Assembly: GCA_002729725.1 (NCBI GenBank)
Contig: PBYS01000094.1
Span: forward strand, 1 to 64,000
Direction: 5' to 3'
DNA length: 64,000 nucleotides
Source of the DNA: Puniceicoccaceae bacterium
Lineage (GTDB): Bacteria > Verrucomicrobiota > Verrucomicrobiia > Opitutales > Coraliomargaritaceae
Shown: positions 35,603-57,296 of the stretch, piece after piece
Layout of the letters: every line of letters begins with the position of its first letter
Position numbering within the stretch: the stretch's first letter is position 1
Made by a program: the position numbers and the translations under genes
Notes under the pieces: model-generated
The model's input: only the letters and a program-made list of their open reading frames with translations
Database searches by the model: none
Told to the model about the DNA's origin: nothing

Positions 35603-38600
35603 ATGCGCTTTCGACCATTTCTCCCCCGTCCATTTGTGATGCTGTTTCGATCTACTTTTAATAGTTTAACTTCCGCCGTTTTAATTTTTGCTTGCGCACA
35701 ATCAGCACATGCTCAGGCCGAGGATGCCAGCCAACTCGGCTTCACAGGTCTTCAAAGCCAAGCAAATGCTCTAGTAGAAGAGGGCCAGCTCGTTCAAGCG
35801 ATGCCACTGCTCAAGGAATTGGTCAAGCGGGTCGAAGCCACCGACAACCCTGACATAAAATTAGACTTTCCGATCTTCCTCATAGGCACAGGGCACATTC
35901 AACAATATGTAGCCTCGGGACAAACTGGTGAACTACAAGAAGCGCTCAAGTGGTATGATAAGCTGGAAGCAGAATTTCCAAATTCGTCCAAGATCAAAGA
36001 CATGCTACTGAAACGGATTGATGTGCTTCGCGTGCTGAACCGCAATGACGAGGCGATCGCAATCATGCAGAAGATCCTATCAGGAGCCTATAGCAATGTG
36101 CGCCTCAGCCATTCGGAACAGACAAAGATGCTGAAGGATCTGACTCAGATTTATTACAGCACTGGGCAACTGGCAGCCGGACTCCCCTACTTTGGGCAGC
36201 TACTTGATGTCGCTCGTGACCTCAATGATCAGGCACTGGCAGCCGCAGCCAGCTTCGAAGCGCTCTTTCAAGCGAAACGCCTAGACGATGCGATCAAACT
36301 ATTGCCAATGTTGGCAAAAGAATCGGAAGTTCGCTACCGCCCACGCCTCAACGTGGCGCTGCTCAAAGCGAGTGACACCTTAGTCGATGCAGGACGCGTC
36401 AATGACGCAGCTCTCACCCTCAACCTAATCAAGACCACCGACATTATGATCGAGTGGCACGAGCAACAAGTAAGCAGCAAAACCGCGCGCATGGAGCAAC
36501 GTATCGCATTTGGCAACGGCGAGGACGAGGTCGAGCGCTTACAGCAAGAAATCAAAACCTTAGAAAACAATTTAACACATCTGCGTAAATTGCCGACTCT
36601 GCGAAACGAACTCCTGGTGCGCCGTGCACGTAACTACACAAAGACAGCTCGCCGCTATGAAGCGTTTTGGATGTTCAACGACCTGATGGAGGAGAACCCA
36701 GACGACCCACAAGCTGAGTTTTATAATTTTGCCACTTTTTCAAACGCACTTCAAATCGGCAAAATAGAAACTGCGATAGAAGTCGGCCGCAGATACCGCA
36801 GTAACTTCCCCAATGGGGACTATTACTCCGACGTGACGGGCGCCTTAGCTAATGAATTAAAGAAGGCAGGCCGCAACGAAGAGTTCATGGCCATCACAGT
36901 CGACTTTCTCGGCAGCCGCCCACTCGACCCCGTGGGGCCCAGCCTCTTCGCTCAATGGGCCAGCTACTTGATCGAGCATAAAGAATACGCACAACTCATC
37001 AATCAAGCAGCGGAATGGTACAACGCACATCCTAACAGCATCTACGAAGATGGCATCTTTTACTGGGGCGGCCTAGCAGAGTTACAACTGAGCCAGTTCG
37101 AAGACGCGGTCGCCAGCTTCTCTCGTCTAGTGGATCAATATGCCACCAGCGCCTACGCTGAAGACGGCCTACTGCGAAAAGGCGCCTCCCAGTTCTATGC
37201 TCAACGCTTCGAAGAAGCTCGCGACACCCTCTACGCCTACGTTGAAAAATATCCCCAAGGCAGCGCCCTGGACCAAGCATATTTCTTCCTAGGTGAAGTC
37301 GAATATCTGGCGACCAACTTAGAGCTTGCACTGCAACACTTCCGCAAGGCCGACGAAATCACGACTCTCCAAGACGTACACAACGGCGCGGCTTTCCGCA
37401 TCGGCGGCGTACTTGAAGAGCTAGGCCGCTATGAGGAAATGGCCACCCATTTTAGAGCATACATCGACCTTTACGGCGAAAACGGCGACCTCACACGTGC
37501 CGTGCTGCAACTCGGACTGGCCTACGAGTATCTAATGCGCCCAGTAGAGATGCTCGCACTCTACCGTGAAAACATCGAAAAATACGCCCAAGACCCCCAC
37601 AACAGCGGTGTGGATGCCTTGATCGAAGGCTATGCTGAGAAATACAGCAAAAATAAAACGATTATTTCCCGCACGGTCACCTTTTTCGATCAACTACAGA
37701 ACGATCTCGAATTCCGTGAGAAGATTGTCACCGACCGTGGCTTCCTGTTTGAGCACTTCTACGTCACGCCAAACATCGATCAGTCGCTGTACAATCGCTT
37801 GCGCAACGATCCGGATTTCACTCCAGAGCTCGTCAACGACCTCAGCCCGATTCAGGACTTCATGACGCCCTATCGCACACAATTGGAGCGCTACCCCAGT
37901 GAAGAACCAGAAGATTACTTCAAGGACCTACTCGCCAAGGCCAAGGCTAAGAACGACTTCATTTCAGAGACTCGTATGCTAATGGGCCTCTATCGTATCG
38001 GAGTCGAACTCGCACCCAGCCAGCGCTTCGACCGTGCACTGATCCAGACCATCACACCACGTGCCATCCTCTATATCGCGGATTATGAGCGCAACAAGCG
38101 CCTGGAATTCGCCGAGGATGCCTGGAACCAAATCTTGATCAACTATCCGACCGACGACACCACGATCGTCGCCTTTATGCGCTTGGCCGATGTCACCGCA
38201 GAAAAGGGTGATCATTCTGGAGCGCTCGGCTACTTAGAACAGATCGTCACTCAATTCCCCGGCTCTCCCAAAATCCCTGCCGTGATGCTACGCCAAGGGG
38301 AACTACTAAGTGAAATGGGCCGCGGCGACAAAGCTCGCGAAAAATATCAATACATCCTACGCGTGCCCGAATGGCGTGGTGTGCTACACGCACAAGCGCT
38401 ACAACAAATAGGGGAAGCATACATGGCAGAAAACGCGTATCCACAAGCGCATGGATTTTTCGAACGCACCTTCCTCGGCTACCCTCACCTGCCGGAGTGG
38501 AGCGCACGCGCCTACCTTTCCGACGCAGACGCACTGATCGGCATGGGTGAAAAGCAGGACGCGATCAATACTTTACAAGAGGCGATTAAGGAACTTCCAG

Positions 38601-38662
38601 CCAATGCCCCTGAGGATATCTTAGAAGCGATCAAAGCCAAACTTAAGGAGCTTCAAGTATGA
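35603..38662 (+). CDS. Large secreted TPR protein
   Basis: 1019 residues. A signal peptide ends near AHAQA (about residue 38). The rest is built almost wholly of TPR-type helical pairs, for example EEARDTLYAYVEKYPQGSAL and SALGYLEQIV-like units, with a stretch near 300-330 that may be coiled. It is the first of six co-directional genes with ExbB/ExbD and a vWA-like protein, and overlaps the next gene by ATGA. By analogy with the TPR protein CpoB of Tol-Pal, it may be a periplasmic organiser of that machine. An ATG at 35639 is an alternative start. Confidence 0.8.
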   Translation: MRFRPFLPRPFVMLFRSTFNSLTSAVLIFACAQSAHAQAEDASQLGFTGLQSQANALVEEGQLVQAMPLLKELVKRVEATDNPDIKLDFPIFLIGTGHIQQYVASGQTGELQEALKWYDKLEAEFPNSSKIKDMLLKRIDVLRVLNRNDEAIAIMQKILSGAYSNVRLSHSEQTKMLKDLTQIYYSTGQLAAGLPYFGQLLDVARDLNDQALAAAASFEALFQAKRLDDAIKLLPMLAKESEVRYRPRLNVALLKASDTLVDAGRVNDAALTLNLIKTTDIMIEWHEQQVSSKTARMEQRIAFGNGEDEVERLQQEIKTLENNLTHLRKLPTLRNELLVRRARNYTKTARRYEAFWMFNDLMEENPDDPQAEFYNFATFSNALQIGKIETAIEVGRRYRSNFPNGDYYSDVTGALANELKKAGRNEEFMAITVDFLGSRPLDPVGPSLFAQWASYLIEHKEYAQLINQAAEWYNAHPNSIYEDGIFYWGGLAELQLSQFEDAVASFSRLVDQYATSAYAEDGLLRKGASQFYAQRFEEARDTLYAYVEKYPQGSALDQAYFFLGEVEYLATNLELALQHFRKADEITTLQDVHNGAAFRIGGVLEELGRYEEMATHFRAYIDLYGENGDLTRAVLQLGLAYEYLMRPVEMLALYRENIEKYAQDPHNSGVDALIEGYAEKYSKNKTIISRTVTFFDQLQNDLEFREKIVTDRGFLFEHFYVTPNIDQSLYNRLRNDPDFTPELVNDLSPIQDFMTPYRTQLERYPSEEPEDYFKDLLAKAKAKNDFISETRMLMGLYRIGVELAPSQRFDRALIQTITPRAILYIADYERNKRLEFAEDAWNQILINYPTDDTTIVAFMRLADVTAEKGDHSGALGYLEQIVTQFPGSPKIPAVMLRQGELLSEMGRGDKAREKYQYILRVPEWRGVLHAQALQQIGEAYMAENAYPQAHGFFERTFLGYPHLPEWSARAYLSDADALIGMGEKQDAINTLQEAIKELPANAPEDILEAIKAKLKELQV

Positions 38663-39789
38663 CCTTTGCCCCAATCAGAAACCTACGCACTATGATGAAG
38701 CGCATTTCCACCCTACTGCTCATGGCAGCTCTGGCTCAAACAGCAGCCACCGCTCAAGAGACCAATCCCTACTGGATTGAATTTGGCAACGAGCCCGTAT
38801 TGATCCAACAAAACAATAATGGCGCGCGCCAGACACTTAAATTCGTAGCCTATAAGGACGACATGCTAGTCGCCGAACTCGAAGGCGGCGTAGGCGAAGT
38901 CTCCCTGCCCGTCAGTGAATCGATGGTGCAAACACTACGCCTAGAGAGCTCCACCATGCCCGAGGTCAATCGGATGATCAGCAGCGGCAACTACACGGGG
39001 GCACTTACTTTATTGCGTCCTTACGCTTATCCACTCGTTAAATTTCACGCCGTGCCAGAGAGCTTTACTCAGCTGCACATCCCCATTCGTTCTTTGATCG
39101 ACACCTTAATTCGTGCCGATGAACTGAATGAAGCCTACGACCTACTCAACCGTATTGAATTGGACAAAGTCGGTCTCAAATATAGCGAAAGCGCCATCGC
39201 GCTGATGAATGCCTATCTCGCCGAAGAGAACTTTGATGCCGCCGCTGGAATGACTCAGATCATTCCGGTCAAAGGTCAATATGCCGTTAACATTCGCCCC
39301 ATCGTCGATGCCGCCGACTCGCTACGAGCCGCAGGCAAATACGAAGCGGTGATTCCTCTTTACCAACAAATTGAAGCGGTTGTGCCCGATGACGTAAAGA
39401 AGAACGTGCAAATGTGGCTGGCTTACAGTCTTGTATTAGCAGACCGCGTCGATGAAGCCACCCCAATGATCGATGCGCTTGAGGAGCCTGAGCCGAACGA
39501 GCGTTTATTCTCACTGTATAAACTACTGCAAGGCTCACGCGCCCACAGCGGTGAGGATTATGGTAAGGCGCTCGACCTGCTCACACGTGGCTTCGTACGT
39601 GCCCAAACCTCTTACGTCTGGGTGCCTGAAATGCTCTACCTCATCGGCGACTGTTACGCGCGCTCCGATGATAATTTGGCAGCACGCAATGTCTGGACGG
39701 AAATCGTGATCCTGTATCCTGAATCCCCCTGGTCACAGAGCGCTGAAAACTCACTTGCATTACTTCCGCCCGTTCAAGCGGTCGAATAA
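38659..39789 (+). CDS. Secreted TPR-like protein of ExbBD cluster
   Basis: 376 residues with a signal peptide (STLLLMAALAQTAATAQ). Helical repeats cover about 100-370 and include a stretch with NPYWIEFGNEP near the mature N-terminus that is unlike TPR and may form a small beta domain. The start overlaps the upstream TPR gene by 4 nt; ATGs at 38692 and 38695 are alternatives that shorten the n-region. Tight linkage places it in the same operon and presumably the same envelope complex. Confidence 0.75.
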   Translation: MTFAPIRNLRTMMKRISTLLLMAALAQTAATAQETNPYWIEFGNEPVLIQQNNNGARQTLKFVAYKDDMLVAELEGGVGEVSLPVSESMVQTLRLESSTMPEVNRMISSGNYTGALTLLRPYAYPLVKFHAVPESFTQLHIPIRSLIDTLIRADELNEAYDLLNRIELDKVGLKYSESAIALMNAYLAEENFDAAAGMTQIIPVKGQYAVNIRPIVDAADSLRAAGKYEAVIPLYQQIEAVVPDDVKKNVQMWLAYSLVLADRVDEATPMIDALEEPEPNERLFSLYKLLQGSRAHSGEDYGKALDLLTRGFVRAQTSYVWVPEMLYLIGDCYARSDDNLAARNVWTEIVILYPESPWSQSAENSLALLPPVQAVE

Positions 39790-39843: not shown

Positions 39844-40638
39844 ATGAAAACACCTACGTTACGTCTCCTCCCCACATTCTTTGCCATCGCACTGTTTGCC
39901 ATCGCGACACAGTGGGTGCTCACACAGCCTTTGAGCGCGCAAGACGCGGCACCAGCAGATACCGAAGAGGCGTCTGCAGAAGAAGCCGCACCTGCTGGCG
40001 GCGAAAAATCACTGATCGACATGTATAAAGCAGGTGGCTGGGCGATGTATCCGCTTACCCTGCTCTCTATTGGCGGTTTCGGATTGATTGTCTATAACTT
40101 CATGGCTGTGCGCCCAGAGCCGATCCTGAACTCAGCCGCAACCACTCAGATCGATGAAGCACTTCAGAACCTCGATATCGAGAAAGCTAAGAGCATTTGT
40201 CAGGAAAACCCTTCGCCTGTAACAAACATTGTCGAATCCGGCATGAACCGCGTCGACGTCAATAACTACGATTCAGAGCAAGTCAAAGAAGCGATCGAAG
40301 AATCCAGCGCGGAAGAATTGGCAGGCCCCTTCGTATTGATCAACTATCTCTCCGTGGTCGGTTCTCTCTCTCCTATGGTGGGACTGCTTGGAACTGTTTC
40401 TGGTATGGTTAAAGCCTTCAACGTGATTGAAGCTGAAGGTGCAGGTAGTGCTCAAGCGCTGGCTGGTAATATTTCGGAAGCTCTGATCACCACTGCCACC
40501 GGAATGATCGTCGGTATTCCCGCGATGTTCTTTTTCTTCTTCTTCAAGAATCGCTACGGTAAGATCACTTCGCGTATCGGACGCGTCGTTGGCGACCTGC
40601 AATTCACTCTGAATAAGGCGATTAACAACCGCGCTTAA
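39844..40638 (+). CDS. MotA/TolQ/ExbB proton channel protein
   Basis: 264 residues. An N-terminal cleavable signal-like segment and an Ala/Glu/Pro-rich periplasmic linker precede the first channel helix (about 65-85). The conserved core, LSVVGSLSPMVGLLGTVSGM then ALITTATGMIVGIPAMFF, holds the helices that with ExbD form the proton path. Family members power TonB, Tol or flagellar-type work across the periplasm. It is upstream of two exbD genes in one operon. Confidence 0.9.
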   Translation: MKTPTLRLLPTFFAIALFAIATQWVLTQPLSAQDAAPADTEEASAEEAAPAGGEKSLIDMYKAGGWAMYPLTLLSIGGFGLIVYNFMAVRPEPILNSAATTQIDEALQNLDIEKAKSICQENPSPVTNIVESGMNRVDVNNYDSEQVKEAIEESSAEELAGPFVLINYLSVVGSLSPMVGLLGTVSGMVKAFNVIEAEGAGSAQALAGNISEALITTATGMIVGIPAMFFFFFFKNRYGKITSRIGRVVGDLQFTLNKAINNRA

Positions 40639-40673
40639 TCTCTTTTCCTTCTCTCGCTCACCCAAATATAAAT

Positions 40674-41078
40674 ATGGCAATGTGGACCCCAGAAGAGGTC
40701 GATCCGGAGTTTGAACTGACTCCGATGATTGACGTCGTCTTCCTGCTTATCGCGTTCTTCATGACATTGATCAGCTTCATCAGCGCAGAGCTGGTGAAAC
40801 TAGAATTGCCAGAAGCCGAACAAGCCACCATTCCCGAAGAACCTGGCGAACGTCAGTATATATCGGTCGATGTTGAAGGGCAACTATTCCTGGGCGCGAC
40901 CCCCATCACTCCTGAAGCCCTCACTGCGCACCTTGCGGCGCTCAAAGCGGAACTTCCGCAGATTCAGGTATTTTTACGTGCCGATGCAAACACTGCGCAC
41001 CGCCACGTCAATCGCGTCATGGAGGCCACGGCACAGGCCGGCATCTTCGACCTCATCTTCGCATCAGCTAAGGACTAA
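40674..41078 (+). CDS. ExbD/TolR-family protein 1
   Basis: 134 residues. The single membrane helix begins ELTPMIDVVFLLIAFFMT and carries the essential aspartate of the D(V/I)xFxLL pattern (D19 or D20 region). A small periplasmic alpha/beta domain follows (QIQVFLRADANTAHRHVNRV). It should pair with the ExbB upstream. Confidence 0.88.
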   Translation: MAMWTPEEVDPEFELTPMIDVVFLLIAFFMTLISFISAELVKLELPEAEQATIPEEPGERQYISVDVEGQLFLGATPITPEALTAHLAALKAELPQIQVFLRADANTAHRHVNRVMEATAQAGIFDLIFASAKD

Positions 41079-41081
41079 TCT

Positions 41082-41513
41082 ATGGCAGTCAGCTCCGTAC
41101 TCGAATCCGAAGATAAAGTCGACATCACACCGATGATCGACGTGGTCTTCCTTCTACTCATTTACTTCATGTTCCTGCCTCTACAGCAAGAAGCAGACAT
41201 CAGTATCAAACTCCCCAGTAACGCCCCTCCAGCAGAGAGCTTGGACCTGCCGAGTGAGCACATCGTAGAAGTCTTCCCAAATGGTTTGATCTTACTCAAT
41301 GGCGCGCCAATGGATGGCATCAATGATCGCAACATGAGCCGACTCAGCACTACGTTGACACGACTCAAGCTGTCTTCCGACCGCGCTGGTATCGATACTG
41401 TGGTAAAAATCCAAGCAGACCCCGACTCCCCCCACCAACGTTCGATTGATGTTTTAAACGCCGCTGCCCGAGCAAAGATCACAAAAGTTTCCTTCGCTGC
41501 TTACGGAGAATAA
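41082..41513 (+). CDS. ExbD/TolR-family protein 2
   Basis: 143 residues, 3 bp after the first exbD gene. The helix starts DITPMIDVVFLLLIYFMF with the same conserved aspartate, and the periplasmic domain (TVVKIQADPDSPHQRSIDVL) is related to but clearly diverged from protein 1. Two different ExbD proteins with one ExbB suggest a mixed stator unit. Confidence 0.88.
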   Translation: MAVSSVLESEDKVDITPMIDVVFLLLIYFMFLPLQQEADISIKLPSNAPPAESLDLPSEHIVEVFPNGLILLNGAPMDGINDRNMSRLSTTLTRLKLSSDRAGIDTVVKIQADPDSPHQRSIDVLNAAARAKITKVSFAAYGE

Positions 41514-42958: not shown

Positions 42959-43999
42959 TCACTGCATCTTCACGCTGGGGCCATCAACCCATATACTCTC
43001 AATTTGCACAACTTTGGGAAATTCTTGCGAACCGAATTCATTTTTCTGTAATTGTCCAACCACTAAATCCACGCCCGCGCTACCGACCACGCGATTATTT
43101 TGCCGCATGCCAGCAATATTAGCCAATTCACAGTGCCAGTCGAGATGCACTAGACCGAGCTCCCGAGGAATGCTAAAACCGGCGTCCTGCAGGCTTTCAT
43201 AAAACTCCGATTGATTCGTAATCACCACGTCGGGCTTTTTTAAACGAATCGCCTCCAACGCGCGGCTCGGATCGTCCATATCAAGCGGCACCACTGCTAA
43301 CTGATTCTGTGGCAATAAACGCCGAACTGCGCTGTAGAACCCTGCACTAAACTTATCTTCTAGCAGCTCATCATCCTTTGGCGGCACGACTAGCATCGGG
43401 CGCTGGTAACCGAGCTCGAATACCTTTTCAGTGGCACGACGTGCGGTTAAATACTGATCATTGGAAGCACAGTTGAGTCGATTGTTCAGATGCGTTACCC
43501 CAATCACGGCACAGGCGAAATCATACCAGAAATCGACATAGCCGCGATCAATGGTATCAGGGCTGAGCGCCGCAATTAAAATCAGACCACGAATCCCACG
43601 CGTCTCCACAATTTGCTTCAGTCGTTGCGGTCGCATGTCAGGCTGTTGCAACCAAAATTCTTCGATACCATAACCGAGAGCTTCCGCCCTGCGTAAGACC
43701 CCCTCACGCAGGCGTCGAAAGGTGTGATTCTGCCCCAAATCACTGACTGGCGAGCAATTAATCAGCCCTAGATTGGCTTGAAAAGTCGGCTGGCGCCCCG
43801 CACGCAGCTGAGTCATCAGCGAATCCACAACTGGATTACGGCGATACCCCATCTCCTCAGCGATCTGTTGAATACGCAAGCGAGTCGCCTCGGGAATACG
43901 TGGATCGTTACGCAGAGCAAGTGAAACAGCAGATTTACTGACTCCAGCAGCATCGCCGATTTGCTGCATATTAGGACGGCGCTCAGGGGTATTGGGCAT
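42959..43999 (-). CDS. LacI-family regulator of the glucan locus
   Basis: 346 residues. The N-terminal helix-turn-helix (MQQIGDAAGVSKSAVSLALR) is followed by RLRIQQIAEEMGYRRNPVV, the usual LacI hinge region, and a periplasmic-binding-protein-like sensor (about 70-340). It is divergent from three GH13 genes, so control of alpha-glucan use by a sugar effector is likely but inferred. I chose the ATG at 43999; a GTG 11 codons upstream is possible. The sensor resembles GntR/LacI-type sugar binders, and the effector is unknown. Confidence 0.88.
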   Translation of the reverse strand: MPNTPERRPNMQQIGDAAGVSKSAVSLALRNDPRIPEATRLRIQQIAEEMGYRRNPVVDSLMTQLRAGRQPTFQANLGLINCSPVSDLGQNHTFRRLREGVLRRAEALGYGIEEFWLQQPDMRPQRLKQIVETRGIRGLILIAALSPDTIDRGYVDFWYDFACAVIGVTHLNNRLNCASNDQYLTARRATEKVFELGYQRPMLVVPPKDDELLEDKFSAGFYSAVRRLLPQNQLAVVPLDMDDPSRALEAIRLKKPDVVITNQSEFYESLQDAGFSIPRELGLVHLDWHCELANIAGMRQNNRVVGSAGVDLVVGQLQKNEFGSQEFPKVVQIESIWVDGPSVKMQ

Positions 44000-44118
44000 T
44001 TCTAATAGAGGTATTAAATAAGAACAAGACACACAATTGAAGCATTAAGTTAACAGTTGAACAAGGCCAAATTACGTTTGTTTGACTGTCGAACCGTCGC
44101 CTCGCTTTAGTTTCGGCA

Positions 44119-44181: not shown

Positions 44182-47100
44182 ATGCATCTATCCCTAAAAC
44201 CACTCTCAGTCTCGCTACGGCTGTCTACCTTGCTCTTACTGTTACTCAGTTGCCGTACTGTATTTAGCGAGGCTATGCTCCAGTATTTCAACACGGACTG
44301 GGCAGAGATCACCCGCAAGATGCCGGAGCTGGCGGAAGCAGGCTACTCCTCGCTGTGGCTGCCGCCCCCCACTAAAGGCAGCGGCGGTCTTTCCGTCGGC
44401 TACGACCTGTGGGACCCCTTCGACCTGGGCAGCAAGAACCAGCGCAACACCGTGCGCACTCGCTACGGCACGGAAGCGGAGTTGCTAGAGCTGGTCAAAA
44501 CCGCTCACCGTTTTGGCATCCGGGTCTATTTTGATAACATTATGAACCACCGGGCCTTTGACATCCCGGGCTACAATGAAGACACCCCGATCGATGTCTA
44601 CCCCGGCATGGTGCCGGAAGACTTCCACCTACAGACCACCCAGGAGGGCTTTTACCGCAAGTGGAACAACACCCGCGACTGGAACAGCGCCTGGCAGGTG
44701 CAAAACCTCGGCCTCGCCGATTTGATCGACATCGCCCAGGAGCCCGGCACCACCAACTACAATTTTGGCCCCACCGAAGGCAGCACTTTTCCGAAGATCA
44801 AATTCATCCGCGACCTCGATCGCCCCGAGCAATACGCCTACGATAAAGACGACAACTACATCGGCTTCGGCGGCCTGCTCCCGCTCGCCGAAGGCCTGTT
44901 AAACGACGAAGGCAACCCCACTCCCAGCGAGGCCCAAATCAAAGCCCGCGCACAGCAATACCTACAAGACAACGCCGGCGACTACGAAGAGTATGTGCAA
45001 GACTACCTCAACCGCGCGGCTCGTTGGCTAATGGATCGCACCCATGCGGACGGCCTGCGCCTCGACGCGGTGAAACACGCGCAGGCGGATTTCTTCGGCG
45101 CGACCTTTGGCGAGGACAAAGACTCCAGCAACTACGGCTACCTAGGCCAAGTGCAGGTGCAGTACAATCTCACCCGTGGCTTCACCGATTGGAACAACCA
45201 CCGCGATACCGTCTTCGATACCGAAGCGCCCCGCGACGACGCCATGGTCTTCGGCGAACACCTCGGCGAACCGCCCGGTTACGCCCCCTACTTCGACGCC
45301 GGCATGCGCTTAGTCGACAATCCCCTCCGCACGGAATTCAACAGCCGCCTCGGCAGTCCGTGGAATGGGCTCTATGGCTTTGATAACTCCGGCGCAGGCG
45401 GCTTCGACCCCGCACTCACAGTCATGCACGCGCAGAGCCACGACAACGACTACGCCTCCCGCCGCGAGCTCCAGCACGCCATGTATTTCACCCGCGCCGG
45501 ACTCGGCCTCCTCTACACCGATGGCAACTACCAGGCCGAAACACTGGGTGAATCTGGCGGCGCCTTCCCGCGTCATGCCAACACTTCCTTCCTCGGCCAA
45601 TGGGACGACGCACGGGTGCCCAACATCCTCTACATCCACGAGCAATTTGCCCGCGGCTACCAACTCGGCAAATACTCTGACAGCGACGTCGTGATCTACG
45701 AGCGCATGGACAAACGCGAAAACGGCAGCATGACTGATGCCGACGGCGTCACCATGCTCTTCATGCTCAACGACGATTACTCCACCGGCCATGGTCGTAA
45801 CTTCGGCACCAGCTTTCCCGCCACCGCTGGCAGCAACGATGCCTATCTTTACAACTACTCCGACTACGGCGGCGGCTTCTACAAATATGCTTCCGACCTA
45901 ACAAATGGCTCCACCGTCATCCCAGCCGGAGGCTACTTCGTATTCGGCTGGAAAAACCCCGATCCTTCCAGCCTGTGGGCCAACTCCGGCGGCCGCCCGC
46001 TCACCATCTATCAAGGCGGCGTCGAAGTCGGCACCGTCGACGTGCTGCGCAAAGACGGCCCCAACGGCGATGCCGACTTTCACGGCGACACCTTGCCCAG
46101 CTCCAGCCAACCCATCATCAGCAATCCCGAAAACGACGACTTCGCCTACACCGCCACCGTGCCTCGCATCACCGACGGCACACAGGTGCGCTTCGTCGCC
46201 CGCGCCGATGGCTCCGCCGAAAACATCCTGCTCAAACTCGACGGCGGCATCGACCTCAACGACACCAACCACGCCGGCGGCGACCCGCGCGACCATCCTC
46301 CCGCACTCGCGACCGACACCTTTCTCGGCTACGAACAAGCCACTTTCGTCGACCGCATCGGCCCCGAAAAATTCGCCGCCACGGACACCACGCGCTGCAT
46401 CTTCGGCTCTGCCGGCGCGGAAACTTTCACCGCAGGCGACGTCACCGCAAACGGCTTAGGCAACAACCCACAAGAGACGGCCGCCGCTACCTTCGTCTTT
46501 CACGATCCCACAGCCGGATTCGGCAGTTGGACACCGGACGACGGCGCGCTCGCCACAGCCACTCAGCTCGACCAGACTGGCAGCTCCACCATTGTTTGGG
46601 TAAAGACCAACAGCGTCGGCGCAGGCTTTAAAGCTTACGTTTATTACACCAACGATGGCAGTGCCCCCGAAGGCGCGGGCGCATGGGGCCGCGGCACGAC
46701 ACAAGTCGCCGAAGCCTTCTACGTCGTGCCCAACACCGAGGACGGCGACAACTGGTGGCGCGCCGAAATCAACCCCACACCCGCGGGCACTTTAAAATAC
46801 AAGATCGGCGTTTATAAAACGGCCCAAGACAGCGTGTTCCCCAGCGGCGCGGCCGAAGTCGCCCTCAAGACGAAGATGATGACCACCTTCCAAACCTCCG
46901 AACGCGACCTCACCACCGTCACCGTGCGTCCACACAACGACTACGGCGTCAGCGAAACCGGGCTCGAAGAAGGCATGCACATGATCGCCGCACGCACCTT
47001 CCTACAGCGCCCCGGCAAGGCCTCCATTTACAACACCTTCAAACAGACCTTCTACTACGACGCCGAACGCCCACAGGGCGAAGTGCGCTTCCCGGAAAAC

Positions 47101-50100
47101 AACGGCGACACCATTAGCGGCTCCAGCTACGGCATCGTCGTCCGCACCGATGCCACCGTCGAAGAAGTTTGGTATCGTATCGAAGATTCGGACACGACCA
47201 ACGACGACGTCAACACCGGCGGCAGTAATGGCAACGGCGTCGGCTTCGAGCCCTTCACCGACACCAACCAAAACGGCACCCGCGACGCTGGCGAAAGCTA
47301 CGACGACCTCAACGGCAATGAACAGTGGGATAACAACGTCGCCGAAATCTGGGCGCTCGCCTCCGAGCAAACCCCCAGCCTCAACATCACTCCCGGCGAA
47401 CCTGCCTATCGTAAAGAGTGGCGCTTCAACTACGTCAACGTACCCGCCACCGGCAGCGCCGATATCAAAGTGCGCTTCCGCGAGCTCTCCTCGAGCAATT
47501 ACGAAGACTTTGCGCTCAACGATACCGCTGGCCACTTCACCACACTCACACGCACCGTCAACACCGCCGGCCCCGACGAACGTATGTTCATCGCCTTCCC
47601 CGCGCAGAATCGCCAGATCGTAGACGATAACTACGTGATGAAGGTTTACTTCACAAAATCTCTAGCCGATGGCTTAACCGAACAGCAACTCATCGATCGC
47701 TTCTTGATTAACATCGGCTCGACCGAAGAGAACGACGCCGGTGAATCACAAAGCCGCGACGACTACTCGATCGTTTATAACGAGACCAGCGAATACCACG
47801 CGCTGGCCTATCAATTGCCCAATCTCTATAACGACATCAACGACTATGATCACAAGATCACCGTCACCCACGACCGCCCCACGCCCGCCACCGACTTCGA
47901 GTCGACCCGCATCGTGCGCGCGCTCCCCGTCACCACGCCGCGGGTGCTGATCGTCAACCCACCGGAACTCGGCTCTGACAGCCGCCCTTACGAAATCATC
48001 CTGGCCGACGTGCCTGCCCCCACTGCCGACCAGCGCGAGTTTACCATACAAATCGCCACCAATCTGGACGCCACCGACGTGACACTCAACTTCGTCGATT
48101 TGAAAGGCTCCAGCATCGGCACACCGACCAGCGTAGTCTCGGGCAACAGCAAACTCTGGGACTTCACCTGGTCCGCCATCGCCGAGGGCAGCTACCGATT
48201 CACCGCCACCGTCACCGCTCCAGGTGGCACCGGCACCGCCGATCGCAGCACCAAGGTCATCTTCCGCGAGCTGGTCGAAGAAGACCCCAACAACACCGAC
48301 GATGATAACGACGGCCTGCTCGATGCCGATGAAAACACCGCTCAGCTCTTGCCCATCGTCAATTCGGATCAATGGACCAACGGCGACATTCACGCTTATT
48401 TCGCATTCGGCAGTTCCAATCCCTTCTCGCCCGACACCGACGGCGACGGCCTGCCCGACGGACTCGAAGTCGGCTGCCACAATGCCCTCAACGCCGACAC
48501 CGATGCAGCTGCCGACACCGACGGTGACGGCTTCAAAAATTTCATCGGCGACCTCGATCCGCCCTTTTACAACACGGTCGACAACTATGGCAATGTGCCC
48601 AACGTCGACAGCATCAGCGCAGGCGGCGACCGCACACGCCAGTCCGCCGGAAGTGTCACCGACCCCACCAATGCCGACTCCGACTACGACGGCATTTCCG
48701 ACGGGGTCGAAGACGCCAACCGCAACGGCTGGGTCGATGGCGATGGTGCCATCATCCCCGTCGACTATAATCCATGGGCAGGACGCGACTGGCCAGACGG
48801 CGTCAGACAGCCCAGTGAAACCTGGACCGAAACCGATCCCAACAATGCCGACACGGACGGCGATGGTGCCAGCGACGGCTATGGCGAAGACACTAATTTC
48901 AATGGCGTCATCGCAGGCGACAGCAACAACAATCGCATCTACGATGCAGGTGAAGCATGGAGCGAAACCGATCCACTCAATCGCGATACCGACGGTGACG
49001 GACTCCCCGATGGCTGGGAAATCAACAACGGCCTCGATCCGCTCGATAACGGCACCGATTCACTGCGCACCGCCGCAGTCGACGATGGCGACAGCAACCA
49101 AGGCGCCACCGGTGACCCCGATGGCGACGGCTTCAACAATGCCACCGAACTCGCCAACGGCACACGCCCCTTAGAGGATGACAACGTGCCACCGCCCCCC
49201 GCCAACTCGATCATCATCGGCCCCGCCGAGGACGACTCCGTCGGTAGCGTGAGCAACCTCAACGAATTCACCGATTGGACCATCGACGACCTGCTGGTGC
49301 TCGACGAATACGATGGCAACGGCGGCAACAACCAAGGCTCCGATATCTATAAAGCCTACGACGGTTTCGATGAATCGCGCGACATCGTGGCCTTCTACTT
49401 CCGCGACGGCGGCGCCGACGGCAAACTCTACTTCCGATTCGACTTCCAAGACCTCAAAGCCTTTGCCGAGGAAGGCAATCTCGATGCCTACGTCGTCATC
49501 GACACGGGTAACACCGCCGTCGGCGAGTCCGCCCTGCCCGAAGAAGTCGACACCCGCACCAACATGAAATGGGAGGCCGTCGTCGCGATCTACAATGCCG
49601 ACAACGGCGCCGTTTATATCGACACCGACTCCGGCAGCAACACCACCGCCATCGGCGAGGACCTCTTCAGCAAGGGCGTCGTGCGCCGCACCCAAGCCGA
49701 TACCAACGGTTTCAAACAAGCCTACTTCAATTCGCAATTGGACGCGATGGAAGCCTCTATCAGCCGCCAAGCCTTGCTCGACGCGGGTTGGAATGGCAAT
49801 ACCGACAACCTCAATTTCCAAGTCTACACCACCCGCGACGGCATCGACAACTCGGGCCCCGGACTCGGTGACATCGGTGGCCGCAGTGATGTGCGCGACT
49901 CCATCCGCAACGACTACATCGCGTCTTCTTATTATAAAGATCAAAGCAATCTCAGCGGCGACAAGAGCATCCTCTACAGTTGGTTCAGCCGCACAGGCGA
50001 CAACGACCGTGGCAAACGCGCCAAGGTCGCGCTCATCACACATGGCAATCAAGCCATCCGCTCCGCCAACGAAATGCAAGACCGCATCCACGACGATGCC

Positions 50101-52527
50101 AGCACCGATCCCGCGGGCTACTTCCGCTTAGTCGATGCGCACGATGCCTTTGCTGCCGCGGTCAATTTGCACATCACACCAACCCTCGCCTCGGCACTGC
50201 AATGGGCCGCCGTCGATCCAAGCATCGGCAAAGCTTACCGCGACGGTCCGACACTCAACGCGCGCATTAGCAGCCTCCTTCTCTCGGGCGATGCCATGCT
50301 CTTTGGCACCACCTTTGCCGACCAAGTCGTGCCCTTCGCCACCACCGCATTCACGCAGGACAGTGTCAACTTATCCAACACCGTGCTCACCGAGATCTAC
50401 AGCTCAGCGCCTTCCAGCACAACCTTCTGGCCCGCCGAGCGCGTGGTCGACGACGGCGTGCTCGCCACCATCCAATCGATGGGCTACAGCCACACCGTGG
50501 TGGATCAAATGCGCCACTTCTTCAAATGGTTTGGCCGCACGCAAACTCTCGGACAAGCGGGCTACCAGATCAACGAAGTCAACAATGTCGGCCTCTTCCC
50601 GATCCACGACTTCGCCAGCACCTTCCTTTTCCAAAACCAGGATCTCGGGCTCGACATCTCCCTGCGCGAACTACTCGGTCGTCGCGCCCGCAGCGGCACT
50701 CAAGATCAAGTGCTCAGCCTACTCAGCGATTGGGAAGACTTCCGTAGCGCCGCCAACGCGGAGGCCTACGATCTGAACCTGCGCTGGATCGCCAACCGCC
50801 CGTGGATCGAACTCGTCACGCTCGACGATGTCGCGCACGGCGAGATCGACCTCTCGCAGCCGGCCGATGGCAGCGGCGACACATGGAGCACCGTCGACCG
50901 CGGCACCGGCCAAAGCCTGCAACGCACCGCTAAGGACTTTATCGACCACGCCACCCAAGAGGACTACGGCAACTGGTATGATGGACAATCCGATCGTGAA
51001 GAAGGTCTCGCGGGTAAGACCTTTGAAGTGCGCCCTGGCGTGAACTTGCCCGCCGCCTTCGGCGAAGTAGGCGTCAGCGGTATCGCCGACGATGCATGGG
51101 GCGACGTCGCCGCCATCAGCAACAGCAGCACCAGCCAATTGGGCCGCTCCGTCGCGCACGCGGCCATGTTTGTGACTGCCTTCCATGAGCAACAGAACAA
51201 TAACCTTAGCAAGTTCTCCACCGGCACTTATATCTACCCAGACACCGACTTTAACAACCTGGCCGAGTTCTCCAAGCTGGCACAGTCGCAGATGCGCTTT
51301 GCCGCACTCTACCAACGAGTCGATGCCTGGGCCGCCGCCGCGCCGGTCACCGCTCAAACCAGCGCTGAAGACATCGACCTCGACGGCGAAGATGAATACC
51401 TGCTCTACAACGAAACCGCCTTCGCCGTCTTCGAAGCCATCGGCGGACGCTGCGTCGCCGCCTTTGCGCGCAACCCCGTCAGCGACACCGTCTATCAAAT
51501 CATCGGCACTCAGCCAAGCTACGCCGGCAACGAAACCGAAGAAGAAGGCACCGCCAACGTGGACGCTAGCAGCATCGGCGCACGCCGCACCTCCGCGTTT
51601 AAGGACTGGTATGCCGACGGTTCCGGCGGGGGCACCACCCAATACGTGAACAGCCTCTACACCGTCGCCGCCAGTGGCAGCAATGGTTGGACGTTTACCG
51701 CAGCCGGTAGCCACATCATAAAGACCATCACGCTCGACGACGTCCTGCCCGACCTGCAAGCCGACTACACCCTCAGCGGCACCAATGTCGACAAGCTCTA
51801 CGTGCGTCACGGTCTCTCACCCAACCTCTGGAACCTGATCAGCCGCGGCCAATACGACCTCGACAATCTCAGTGTATTCACCGGCCGGATACGCCTAGCC
51901 AATCGTGGCGGCGCCGAGCCCGTCGTGGCTGAAGTCAGCTACGATGCCAACACAGTCTTCAACGGCGACGCAGTCGACGACCAACCCGGCACCCTCGAAT
52001 GGGATGCCTCCAACATGCGCAACCAAGCACTGACGCAACAAGTCGAGTTCACCAACGTCGATGGCCAGAACAGCTTCTCGATGACCTTAAGCCTCGAAAG
52101 CGGCATGACGGATAACGACGGCGACGACCTGCCCAACTGGTGGGAGCTGGACAACGGCCTCGATCCCGACGACGCCACCGGCAGCAACGGCAAAGCCGGC
52201 AACGACGACGGCGACGCCTTCACCAACTTCGAAGAATACGTGCTCGGGCTCGACCTCACAGAGGCGGAGTTCAACGGTCTACCGCAGGGCCTGATTGAAA
52301 CAAACGAGAGCGGCCACTTCACTGTGACCTTCCCCGTTCTCGCGGGCCGCAGCTACCGCGTCTGGTATGTCGATGATTTGACACAAACTTGGCAACCCGC
52401 CGGTGGTCGCTTCTCCATCACCGAGGGCGCCCCCGCCTACACATGGACCGACGACGGCTCCGTCACCAATCCCGATCCCGCTACAGTCGACAATCGCTTC
52501 TTCAAGATCGAGATCACCCGACCTTAG
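44182..52527 (+). CDS. Giant secreted GH13 amylase with C-terminal GH57-like domain
   Basis: 2781 residues. A signal segment (LLLLLLSC; possible lipoprotein Cys24 or cleavage near A31) precedes a GH13 domain with all four regions: D118-N122-H123, R293/nucleophile D295 in GLRLDAVKH, acid/base E359 in VFGEHLGE, and H420-D421. Beta-type modules follow (about 560-1365), then acidic Ca-binding repeats of the DTDGDGLPDG type (about 1366-1660) and a DOMON-like beta domain (about 1676-1900). Residues about 1940-2230 read as GH57: H1954-GNQ for the HQP motif, FWPAERV with E2086 as nucleophile, and SDWEDF with D2183. More Ca-binding repeats and a C-terminal beta module end it. It probably degrades extracellular alpha-glucan. 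Confidence 0.85.
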   Translation: MHLSLKPLSVSLRLSTLLLLLLSCRTVFSEAMLQYFNTDWAEITRKMPELAEAGYSSLWLPPPTKGSGGLSVGYDLWDPFDLGSKNQRNTVRTRYGTEAELLELVKTAHRFGIRVYFDNIMNHRAFDIPGYNEDTPIDVYPGMVPEDFHLQTTQEGFYRKWNNTRDWNSAWQVQNLGLADLIDIAQEPGTTNYNFGPTEGSTFPKIKFIRDLDRPEQYAYDKDDNYIGFGGLLPLAEGLLNDEGNPTPSEAQIKARAQQYLQDNAGDYEEYVQDYLNRAARWLMDRTHADGLRLDAVKHAQADFFGATFGEDKDSSNYGYLGQVQVQYNLTRGFTDWNNHRDTVFDTEAPRDDAMVFGEHLGEPPGYAPYFDAGMRLVDNPLRTEFNSRLGSPWNGLYGFDNSGAGGFDPALTVMHAQSHDNDYASRRELQHAMYFTRAGLGLLYTDGNYQAETLGESGGAFPRHANTSFLGQWDDARVPNILYIHEQFARGYQLGKYSDSDVVIYERMDKRENGSMTDADGVTMLFMLNDDYSTGHGRNFGTSFPATAGSNDAYLYNYSDYGGGFYKYASDLTNGSTVIPAGGYFVFGWKNPDPSSLWANSGGRPLTIYQGGVEVGTVDVLRKDGPNGDADFHGDTLPSSSQPIISNPENDDFAYTATVPRITDGTQVRFVARADGSAENILLKLDGGIDLNDTNHAGGDPRDHPPALATDTFLGYEQATFVDRIGPEKFAATDTTRCIFGSAGAETFTAGDVTANGLGNNPQETAAATFVFHDPTAGFGSWTPDDGALATATQLDQTGSSTIVWVKTNSVGAGFKAYVYYTNDGSAPEGAGAWGRGTTQVAEAFYVVPNTEDGDNWWRAEINPTPAGTLKYKIGVYKTAQDSVFPSGAAEVALKTKMMTTFQTSERDLTTVTVRPHNDYGVSETGLEEGMHMIAARTFLQRPGKASIYNTFKQTFYYDAERPQGEVRFPENNGDTISGSSYGIVVRTDATVEEVWYRIEDSDTTNDDVNTGGSNGNGVGFEPFTDTNQNGTRDAGESYDDLNGNEQWDNNVAEIWALASEQTPSLNITPGEPAYRKEWRFNYVNVPATGSADIKVRFRELSSSNYEDFALNDTAGHFTTLTRTVNTAGPDERMFIAFPAQNRQIVDDNYVMKVYFTKSLADGLTEQQLIDRFLINIGSTEENDAGESQSRDDYSIVYNETSEYHALAYQLPNLYNDINDYDHKITVTHDRPTPATDFESTRIVRALPVTTPRVLIVNPPELGSDSRPYEIILADVPAPTADQREFTIQIATNLDATDVTLNFVDLKGSSIGTPTSVVSGNSKLWDFTWSAIAEGSYRFTATVTAPGGTGTADRSTKVIFRELVEEDPNNTDDDNDGLLDADENTAQLLPIVNSDQWTNGDIHAYFAFGSSNPFSPDTDGDGLPDGLEVGCHNALNADTDAAADTDGDGFKNFIGDLDPPFYNTVDNYGNVPNVDSISAGGDRTRQSAGSVTDPTNADSDYDGISDGVEDANRNGWVDGDGAIIPVDYNPWAGRDWPDGVRQPSETWTETDPNNADTDGDGASDGYGEDTNFNGVIAGDSNNNRIYDAGEAWSETDPLNRDTDGDGLPDGWEINNGLDPLDNGTDSLRTAAVDDGDSNQGATGDPDGDGFNNATELANGTRPLEDDNVPPPPANSIIIGPAEDDSVGSVSNLNEFTDWTIDDLLVLDEYDGNGGNNQGSDIYKAYDGFDESRDIVAFYFRDGGADGKLYFRFDFQDLKAFAEEGNLDAYVVIDTGNTAVGESALPEEVDTRTNMKWEAVVAIYNADNGAVYIDTDSGSNTTAIGEDLFSKGVVRRTQADTNGFKQAYFNSQLDAMEASISRQALLDAGWNGNTDNLNFQVYTTRDGIDNSGPGLGDIGGRSDVRDSIRNDYIASSYYKDQSNLSGDKSILYSWFSRTGDNDRGKRAKVALITHGNQAIRSANEMQDRIHDDASTDPAGYFRLVDAHDAFAAAVNLHITPTLASALQWAAVDPSIGKAYRDGPTLNARISSLLLSGDAMLFGTTFADQVVPFATTAFTQDSVNLSNTVLTEIYSSAPSSTTFWPAERVVDDGVLATIQSMGYSHTVVDQMRHFFKWFGRTQTLGQAGYQINEVNNVGLFPIHDFASTFLFQNQDLGLDISLRELLGRRARSGTQDQVLSLLSDWEDFRSAANAEAYDLNLRWIANRPWIELVTLDDVAHGEIDLSQPADGSGDTWSTVDRGTGQSLQRTAKDFIDHATQEDYGNWYDGQSDREEGLAGKTFEVRPGVNLPAAFGEVGVSGIADDAWGDVAAISNSSTSQLGRSVAHAAMFVTAFHEQQNNNLSKFSTGTYIYPDTDFNNLAEFSKLAQSQMRFAALYQRVDAWAAAAPVTAQTSAEDIDLDGEDEYLLYNETAFAVFEAIGGRCVAAFARNPVSDTVYQIIGTQPSYAGNETEEEGTANVDASSIGARRTSAFKDWYADGSGGGTTQYVNSLYTVAASGSNGWTFTAAGSHIIKTITLDDVLPDLQADYTLSGTNVDKLYVRHGLSPNLWNLISRGQYDLDNLSVFTGRIRLANRGGAEPVVAEVSYDANTVFNGDAVDDQPGTLEWDASNMRNQALTQQVEFTNVDGQNSFSMTLSLESGMTDNDGDDLPNWWELDNGLDPDDATGSNGKAGNDDGDAFTNFEEYVLGLDLTEAEFNGLPQGLIETNESGHFTVTFPVLAGRSYRVWYVDDLTQTWQPAGGRFSITEGAPAYTWTDDGSVTNPDPATVDNRFFKIEITRP

Positions 52528-55571: not shown

Positions 55572-57296
55572 GTGCTAAAAAAAGCCCTCACCTCTTGCCT
55601 ATTCGCCGCCAGCCTCTGCACCACCACGCAGGCCGCCCCCGATTGGGCGAAGGACATAATCTGGTATCAAATCTTCCCGGAGCGCTTTAACAACGGTGAT
55701 CCAAGCAACGATCCCACCCGTGCCTCACTGGACGACCCGCGCAATGTTTCGCCCAAGTGGGAAATTACCCCGTGGGATTCCGAATGGTTCGACCGCGCGG
55801 ATTGGGAAAAGGAGATGAGCTATCATTTCCCCGACACGCTGCAGCACCGCCGTTACGGCGGCGACCTGCAAGGTGTCATCGACAAGCTCGACTACTTGAA
55901 AGAGCTCGGCATCACTGGCATTTATTTCAACCCGATCTTTTACGCCAACTCACTGCATAAATACGACGGCAACAGCTTTCACCACATCGATCCGCACTTC
56001 GGCCCCGCCCCCGCAGGTGACCTCGCACTGATCGCCGAAGAATCCAGCAATCCGCGCAGCTGGCAATGGACCGCCGCCGACAAGCTTTTCCTCAAGCTGC
56101 TGGCAGAAGCCAAAGCGCGCGGCATACGCGTCATTATCGACGGCGTATGGAACCATACCGGGCGCGACTTCTTCGCCTTCGCCGACATTCGCACTACCTT
56201 TCAAAAGTCCCGTTACGCGCGCTGGTATCACATCAAAGAGTTCGACGATCCCCGCACCGCGCGCAACGAGTTCGACTACCACGGCTGGTATGGTTTCAAG
56301 AGCCTACCCGAATTTGCCAACGATCCCAGCGGCAACAACCTCGCCCCAGGGCCCAAGCGCTACATTTTCAATGCAACGAAGCGCTGGATGGACCCCAACA
56401 ACGACGGCGATCCCAGCGACGGCATCGCCGGCTGGCGCCTCGACGTGGCTGAAGAAGTGCCAGCCGGATTTTGGAAGGAATGGCACGCCTACATCCGCGA
56501 GATCAACCCCGAGGTCTTCACCTCCGCCGAAATCTGGGGCAGCGCGGCGAACTACCTCAAAGACACCCACTTCGCCTCCGCCATGAACTACCGTGGCTTC
56601 GCCATCCCCGTCAAAGGCTGGCTGATCGACGGCAAAATCACCGCCAGCGAATTCGCCGCACGACTCAACCAAGAGCGCAACAGCCACGGCGACAGCGCCT
56701 ATATTTTGCAAAACCTCGTCGATTCACACGACACCCAGCGCGTGGCCTCCGCCATCGCCAACCGCGATAGTTTCCCCCAATACAAGAACGCCGACTGGTT
56801 CGACTACGACGACGGCGAACGCGTGCACGCCCGCACCCAGGGCTACAACAACGGCCCCCCCGACGCCGACGGACGCCGCATCTGGAAAATGCTCACTCTC
56901 TTTCAAGCCACCTATGTCGGCGCACCCATGATCTACTACGGCAGCGAAGTCGGCATGTGGGGCGCGGACGACCCCGAAGACCGCATGCCCACCTGGTGGC
57001 ACCGCTTCGACCCAGAAATCCACAACAGCTATCAAAGCGCGTTCCAATTACGTCACGCCCAGCCCGCCCTGCGCAGAGGTGATTTCAAAGTCCTCGAAAC
57101 CCGCGACGGTAGCCAGCTCTTCGCCTTCGAACGCACACTCGGCGACCAACGCTTAGTGATCGTCCTCAATCGCGGCAAAGGCGATGTCACCCTCGACGGC
57201 GATTACCTCGACGGCTTAAAAGTCATCCACAGCACCGATCCCAAAGCCAGCACTCGCCGCCTGCCCCCGCTCAGCGCCGCGGTATTTGGCCCCTAA
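55572..57296 (+). CDS. Secreted GH13 cyclomaltodextrinase/neopullulanase-like enzyme
   Basis: 574 residues with a signal peptide (LFAASLCTTTQAA). The barrel starts at DIIWYQIFPERF and holds D190-N194-H195 in IDGVWNHTG, R289/nucleophile D291 in GWRLDVAEEV, acid/base E320 in TSAEIWGSA and H386-D387 in DSHDTQRV. The MPTWW segment after the barrel is seen in the neopullulanase/cyclomaltodextrinase group, so it may split oligosaccharides made by the two larger enzymes, probably in the periplasm. Start is GTG at 55572, 31 bp after the second amylase. It has no Ca-repeat tail. Confidence 0.88.
   Translation: MLKKALTSCLFAASLCTTTQAAPDWAKDIIWYQIFPERFNNGDPSNDPTRASLDDPRNVSPKWEITPWDSEWFDRADWEKEMSYHFPDTLQHRRYGGDLQGVIDKLDYLKELGITGIYFNPIFYANSLHKYDGNSFHHIDPHFGPAPAGDLALIAEESSNPRSWQWTAADKLFLKLLAEAKARGIRVIIDGVWNHTGRDFFAFADIRTTFQKSRYARWYHIKEFDDPRTARNEFDYHGWYGFKSLPEFANDPSGNNLAPGPKRYIFNATKRWMDPNNDGDPSDGIAGWRLDVAEEVPAGFWKEWHAYIREINPEVFTSAEIWGSAANYLKDTHFASAMNYRGFAIPVKGWLIDGKITASEFAARLNQERNSHGDSAYILQNLVDSHDTQRVASAIANRDSFPQYKNADWFDYDDGERVHARTQGYNNGPPDADGRRIWKMLTLFQATYVGAPMIYYGSEVGMWGADDPEDRMPTWWHRFDPEIHNSYQSAFQLRHAQPALRRGDFKVLETRDGSQLFAFERTLGDQRLVIVLNRGKGDVTLDGDYLDGLKVIHSTDPKASTRRLPPLSAAVFGP

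Follow-up and report, generated by a model that had tools for sequence, protein, structure and literature searches.

Layout of the locus and of the encoded protein

The window examined was the whole stretch of 64,000 nucleotides, and all positions refer to it. An open reading frame with an ATG start and no internal stop was found at 44182..52527 on the forward strand, coding for a protein of 2,781 amino acids. The gene, its domains and its neighbours were assigned as follows.

42959..44032, reverse strand: divergent LacI-type regulator (PF00356, 7.5e-12), conserved beside the gene in relatives
44182..52527, forward strand: secreted GH13-GH57 fusion protein, 2,781 aa; open reading frames of 2.7-3.0 thousand residues are conserved in relatives
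44182..44271, forward strand: N-terminal signal peptide, approximately residues 1-30, ending in FSEA (hydrophobic leader in the sequence, also in relatives)
44251..46041, forward strand: GH13 alpha-amylase region, residues 24-620, nearest to the GH13_5/7 type (PF00128; NCBIfam PRK09441; PDB 1mwo)
46042..48306, forward strand: string of Ig-like/beta-sandwich domains, residues ~621-1375 (AF2 model; generic Ig/cadherin-type matches)
48307..49248, forward strand: TSP3-type repeats, putatively Ca-binding, residues 1376-1689 (PF18884, 2.7e-14, seven stretches)
49249..50010, forward strand: DOMON-like beta-sandwich, residues 1690-1943 (AF2 model; glucodextranase 1ug9 residues 698-1020, Z 15.6)
50011..51312, forward strand: GH57 barrel and helical subdomain, residues 1944-2377 (PF03065; GH57 structures at Z 27-29.5; hhalign E 1.6e-6)
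51343..52101, forward strand: C-terminal beta-sandwich of the GH57 module, residues 2388-2640 (1k1x alignment; galactose-mutarotase-like fold, Z ~15.9; 1k1w 385-412)
52102..52524, forward strand: C-terminal module with a TSP3-like stretch, common to other large open reading frames of the same genome
52538..55540, forward strand: next gene, a diverged GH13-like secreted protein of ~1,000 aa with its ATG at 52538 (listed open reading frame from 52403; GH13 18.8 bits)
55572..57296, forward strand: GH13 cyclomaltodextrinase/maltodextrin-glucosidase-like enzyme (profile matches; neighbourhood)

The GH57-type module starts approximately 1,700 residues after the GH13 domain in the same chain, and the Ig, TSP3 and DOMON modules may serve as spacers and binders. 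The Ig-like region was modelled with an AF2 pLDDT of 85.8 and a pTM of 0.70, its best generic Ig/cadherin-type match having a Z of 9.7. No starch-binding module was recognised in the middle region 590-1375, where the structure matches were only generic Ig/cadherin-like ones. The initial annotation had placed calcium-type repeats and a DOMON-like unit between the two catalytic domains, and both were recovered there, the repeats through PF18884 and the DOMON-like unit, which gave no Pfam match, through its fold, the PDB match being the C-terminal region of glucodextranase. The residues and motifs that the annotation had quoted were all located at the given places in the open reading frame.

The gene for the diverged GH13-like protein was the direct same-strand follower in 26 of 54 testable loci. 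This protein has weak GH13 similarity and one TSP3 repeat, and its association with the long GH13 form, as with the short one described below, is conserved. The starch-type neighbourhood supports an extracellular alpha-glucan role. On the other side of the regulator, 39844-41513 holds a MotA/TolQ/ExbB-type gene followed by two small open reading frames, possibly ExbD-like, and adjoins genes for large TPR proteins (35603-39789); together they may make up a TonB-type energising cluster next to the alpha-glucan genes. A separate GH57-like protein of 486 aa, encoded in another part of this genome (L025, G000:C57:6620-9955), scored 53.6 bits and carries a WNPE motif, with a sulfatase-like frame at the locus.

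Family and fold of the two catalytic units

PF00128 matched the GH13 unit in the full protein at 45.2 bits (9.9e-12), and NCBIfam placed the region with the PRK09441 alpha-amylases. When the family profile of the unit was compared with the PDB, the match was to alpha-amylases of the liquefying and archaeal type, with an E of 3.2e-33 for 1mwo. A full catalytic set of D295, E359 and D421 had been proposed in the initial annotation, and this Asp-Glu-Asp triad was present in conserved sequence regions (CSRs) II, III and IV:

45064..45066, forward strand: GH13 nucleophile D295, kept in 54 of 54 relatives
45256..45258, forward strand: GH13 acid/base E359, kept in 56 of 56 relatives
45442..45444, forward strand: GH13 transition-state stabiliser D421, kept in 57 of 57 relatives

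R293, K298 and H299 were likewise invariant wherever relatives cover these positions. The unit resembles the alpha-amylases 1mwo, 4uzu and 6ag0 in its E-values of 1e-30 to 1e-33, its full triad and its conserved regions, but the strongest similarity is confined to approximately residues 33-126 and, unlike in these enzymes, more than 2,000 residues of modules follow. From its sequence we regard the GH13 unit as an active alpha-amylase, with a predicted substrate and product.

For the second unit, PF03065 matched residues 1994-2123 of the full protein at 23.6 bits against a cut-off of 21.2, a single-sequence score insufficient on its own since 23.7 bits is reached by a CE4 deacetylase from this genome. 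That CE4-like polysaccharide deacetylase (L027, G000:C68:378-569) passes the PF03065 cut-off and is a warning against GH57 calls made from Pfam only. The GH57 assignment is settled because the relatives, the profile alignment and the fold agree, beyond the single Pfam match. A GH57-like segment had been proposed initially, and profile search and structure comparison both returned GH57: PF03065 was found in the domains of 69 of 70 relatives (best 1.1e-12), with no CE4/polysaccharide-deacetylase Pfam family among the matches of the 70 domain members, and the modelled fold agreed best with GH57 structures.

The AlphaFold (AF2) model of residues 1690-2640, built from 69 sequences, had a pLDDT of 94.2 and a pTM of 0.92. 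The top Foldseek match was the 4-alpha-glucanotransferase of T. litoralis (E 1.3e-20). VIA-align superposed 1k1x on the model with a Z of 29.5 over 506 residues spanning model positions 255-950, the rmsd of 9.6 covering several domains, and the amylopullulanases with Z 27-28 over 331-367 residues at 3.3-4.1 Å (9jlu: Z 27.9, 331 residues, 3.3 Å). The best PDB structural matches were all GH57, with GH57 structures spanning Z 22-29.5, and CE4 deacetylases lay below them at Z 19.8 or less. The model contains the incomplete (beta/alpha)7 barrel of GH57, followed by helical and further domains, and residues 2388-2640 fold into a mutarotase-like beta-sandwich, which 1k1x has too.

In sequence comparison the family profile matched no more than two PDB entries, each of them a GH57 protein (7e1y, E 0.049; 1k1w, E 1.4), the 1k1w match consisting of two weak collinear stretches of which the second lies at 1k1w 385-412. 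Profile alignment by hhalign with the 4-alpha-glucanotransferase-type proteins of the phylum gave an E of 1.6e-6 over 255 columns; the same comparison with the alpha-amylase group was uninformative, the longest open reading frames from those loci being mostly not the GH57 gene. PF09095, the C-terminal family of 4-alpha-glucanotransferases, gave no match in residues 2400-2640 at an E of 10, nor in the genome itself. The module thus shares its barrel, helical part, C-terminal beta-sandwich and nucleophile position with the T. litoralis enzyme (1k1x/1k1w), but at approximately 14% identity, with PF09095 absent and a different specificity residue, and in a chain that is secreted and fused to GH13. 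It is also close to the GH57 amylopullulanases of Aquifex aeolicus (9jlu/9kyq) and Staphylothermus marinus (7e1y, the best sequence-profile match in the PDB), whose chains, unlike the fusion protein, have no GH13 partner. The open reading frame is confirmed to join a GH13 alpha-amylase and a complete GH57-type module in one chain, and this joining is not a chance result, given the Pfam scores in the full protein and the 69 of 70 relatives matching GH57.

Active site of the GH57 module and drift of the proton donor

A survey of GH57 places a Glu nucleophile on strand 4 and an Asp donor on strand 7 (PMC6037648). The motifs quoted in the initial annotation lie here at residues 1953-1957 (THGNQ), 2035-2042 (SGDAMLFG), 2082-2088 (FWPAERV), 2105-2109 (TVVDQ) and 2182-2187 (SDWEDF), with the following key positions:

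50041..50043, forward strand: H1954 of the CSR-1-like HGNQ motif, end of strand 1, kept in 71 of 73 sequences
50437..50439, forward strand: GH57 nucleophile E2086 in CSR-3 (WxxERV), right after strand 4, kept in 72 of 73
50503..50505, forward strand: D2108 of the invariant D-Q-x-x-H motif, end of strand 5, kept in 73 of 73
50728..50730, forward strand: GH57 proton-donor position D2183, last residue of strand 7, present in this protein

E2086, a candidate nucleophile in the initial annotation, was aligned with the WLPE nucleophile of GH57 by hhalign and with WTPE of 7e1y. R2087 was kept in 72 of the 73 sequences, and Q2109 and H2112 in all of them. The one sequence with a changed nucleophile, from the single-cell genome AG-457-L13 (L050), has Asn in place of Glu and keeps D2183. 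The region that aligned with HFHQP of CSR-1 reads H-x-N-Q-A/P in place of H-x-H-Q-P (H in 71/73, N in 68/73, Q in 59/73, P in 22/73), and the SGDAMLFG region, previously put forward as CSR-2, varies among relatives. The acid suggested earlier, D2183, falls at the donor position of CSR-4 in the AF2 model, an assignment made by strand position, not by residue-level structural superposition. The window protein has both the Glu and the Asp of GH57, and it is from their strand positions that we infer that E2086 and D2183 would face each other.

At the donor position Asp was found in 42 of the 72 relatives with a residue there (~58%), the others having Asn, His, Ser, Trp, Met, Gln or further residues. 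D2183 was absent from 29 of 70 domain rows, every one of which keeps E2086. A tree of the 70 domains required at least seven state changes at this position, or eight with the stand-alone forms added, the direction of change being ambiguous for the basal Kiritimatiellae rows. Position 2186, three residues after the donor, was Asp or Glu in 67 of the 70 rows (29/29 without D2183, 38/41 with it) and is D2186 in the window protein. It corresponds to specificity position 23 as defined in PMC6037648, where described GH57 enzymes are non-acidic; the Lys that marks the 4-alpha-glucanotransferase subgroup at this position is replaced here by D2186. GH57 'like' proteins whose catalytic machinery is incomplete were already known (PMC6037648), and part of the fusion family resembles them in missing one catalytic residue; in contrast to them, the family retains its nucleophile almost without exception, drift being limited to the donor, and the window protein has both. 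In the lineages without D2183 the GH57 unit is probably mainly an alpha-glucan-binding or altered-chemistry module that has kept its nucleophile site.

Distribution, origin and function of the fusion

A profile of the GH57-like domain, run against 84,980 species genomes, gave 73 loci, nearly all under Verrucomicrobiota names (including Opitutia, Akkermansiaceae/Verrucomicrobiaceae, Chthoniobacterales/Spartobacteria and Kiritimatiellae), and the long open reading frame was also recovered from relatives across genus, family and order. The long gene occurs in the cultured strains Cerasicoccus arenae KCTC 12870 and Haloferula rosea KCTC 22201, and in whole-genome samples the long form was present in approximately 8-10% of the genomes of the class or phylum. 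Among 53 open reading frames closed at both ends, 50 were of 2,723-2,960 aa, and for two of the three shorter ones the missing part was a second stretch just upstream. A frame of 26,627 aa around one relative (G588) was rejected as an artefact of N runs. One contig with the long gene (L106, 73% identity, with the LacI and downstream neighbours) is titled Halieaceae bacterium MED780 and is probably a mis-binned Verrucomicrobiota contig.

The long form looks like a fusion because each half is also encoded on its own in the phylum. In five genomes of the class a short GH13 form of 1,232-1,451 aa lacks the GH57 half and spans at most approximately residues 10-1365, in one case also with the C-terminal module 2642-2781; two short forms directly precede the same downstream gene as the long form. 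Stand-alone DOMON-GH57-beta-sandwich proteins of 1,103-1,264 aa (L202-L211), without GH13, cover approximately residues 1674-2781 at 28% identity. Each of the ten retains HANQ, PERV, LDE-x-x-H and FDDWE, and so D2183 too, and these stand-alone sequences suggest that an intact E/D pair was the original condition.

We judge it somewhat more probable than otherwise that the protein is a secreted modular alpha-glucan degrader, derived from the fusion of two proteins, in which the GH57 unit has remained functional as a retaining enzyme of that family. Through TSP3-type repeats, a GH13 alpha-amylase bearing Ig-like domains (~1.2-1.45 thousand residues) would have been joined to a DOMON-GH57-beta-sandwich enzyme (~1.1-1.26 thousand residues). 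The GH13 unit would cut alpha-1,4 bonds, presumably as endo-cleavage, in a polymer likely to resemble starch or glycogen and by the usual retaining mechanism. Using E2086 as nucleophile and D2183 for acid/base catalysis, the GH57 unit would work on this glucan chain or an adjacent one, and may cleave, debranch or transfer alpha-glucan chains; both 4-alpha-glucanotransferase and amylopullulanase are among its fold neighbours. The neighbouring GH13 enzymes would finish the products under the control of the LacI-type regulator. Two working alpha-glucan-active units are favoured since the window protein has both GH57 catalytic residues. Weighing against this interpretation, at the level of sequence, are the missing donor in 29 of 70 rows, the altered CSR-1, the absence of PF09095 and the acidic residue three positions after the donor.

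It had been suggested that the second domain may be an inactive binding module, a view that the 29 relatives without the donor favour and the intact pair of the window protein opposes. Extended to the whole family, this would make the module a pseudoenzyme throughout, a DOMON unit with a degenerate GH57 whose sole role would be to bind alpha-glucan on behalf of the GH13 unit. The missing donor, with at least seven state changes, and the altered CSR-1 speak for this, though we consider it doubtful: the near-complete retention of E2086 and R2087 and the invariance of D2108, Q2109 and H2112 would not be expected of a mere scaffold, and the stand-alone paralogues, like the window protein, keep both residues. 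Activity throughout the family, with another acid serving where D2183 is absent, has its best candidate in residue 2186, which is acidic in every row without the donor, all of them retaining E2086. This is quite improbable, however, as residue 2186 is also acidic in most rows that have D2183, so that it is not a compensating change, and described GH57 enzymes are non-acidic there. A related proposal, which we hold to be unlikely, would assign the Verrucomicrobiota proteins, fused and stand-alone alike, to a new GH57 subfamily with a distinct fingerprint (HxNQ, WxxERV, D-Q-x-x-H, [DNH]-W-x-[DE]-F) whose members without D2183 would be catalytic with unusual acid assistance beside the GH13 site of the chain.

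Two further explanations concern the identity of the domain and of the gene. A reading of the second domain as a CE4-type (NodB) deacetylase or other (beta/alpha)7 relative could be argued from the CE4 fold matches and from the CE4 protein of the same genome that passes the PF03065 cut-off, but the higher Z of the GH57 structures, which extends to the helical and C-terminal domains, and the Pfam matches of the relatives, GH57 in 69 of 70 and CE4 in none, leave it very little probability. Many relatives are metagenome bins, as would suit an artefact in which an assembly or frame error had linked two genes; dozens of loci share this architecture, among them those of the two cultured strains and of a single-contig genome of 5.8 Mb (G131), and they render that explanation practically negligible.

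GH13 and GH57 are the two main alpha-amylase families and evolved separately. Each domain of the protein is of a known kind, and no description of the GH13-GH57 combination was found in the open-access literature, although CAZy entries or subscription papers could still hold one. A phylum-wide protein containing both families, whose halves also occur alone, offers a natural experiment on why two unrelated amylases would be linked. Since the donor is repeatedly absent while the nucleophile is frozen, the passage from enzyme to binding module, or to another mechanism, can be tested directly in close relatives. Many Verrucomicrobiota genomes probably encode an extracellular alpha-glucan enzyme with a second unit that annotation has overlooked.
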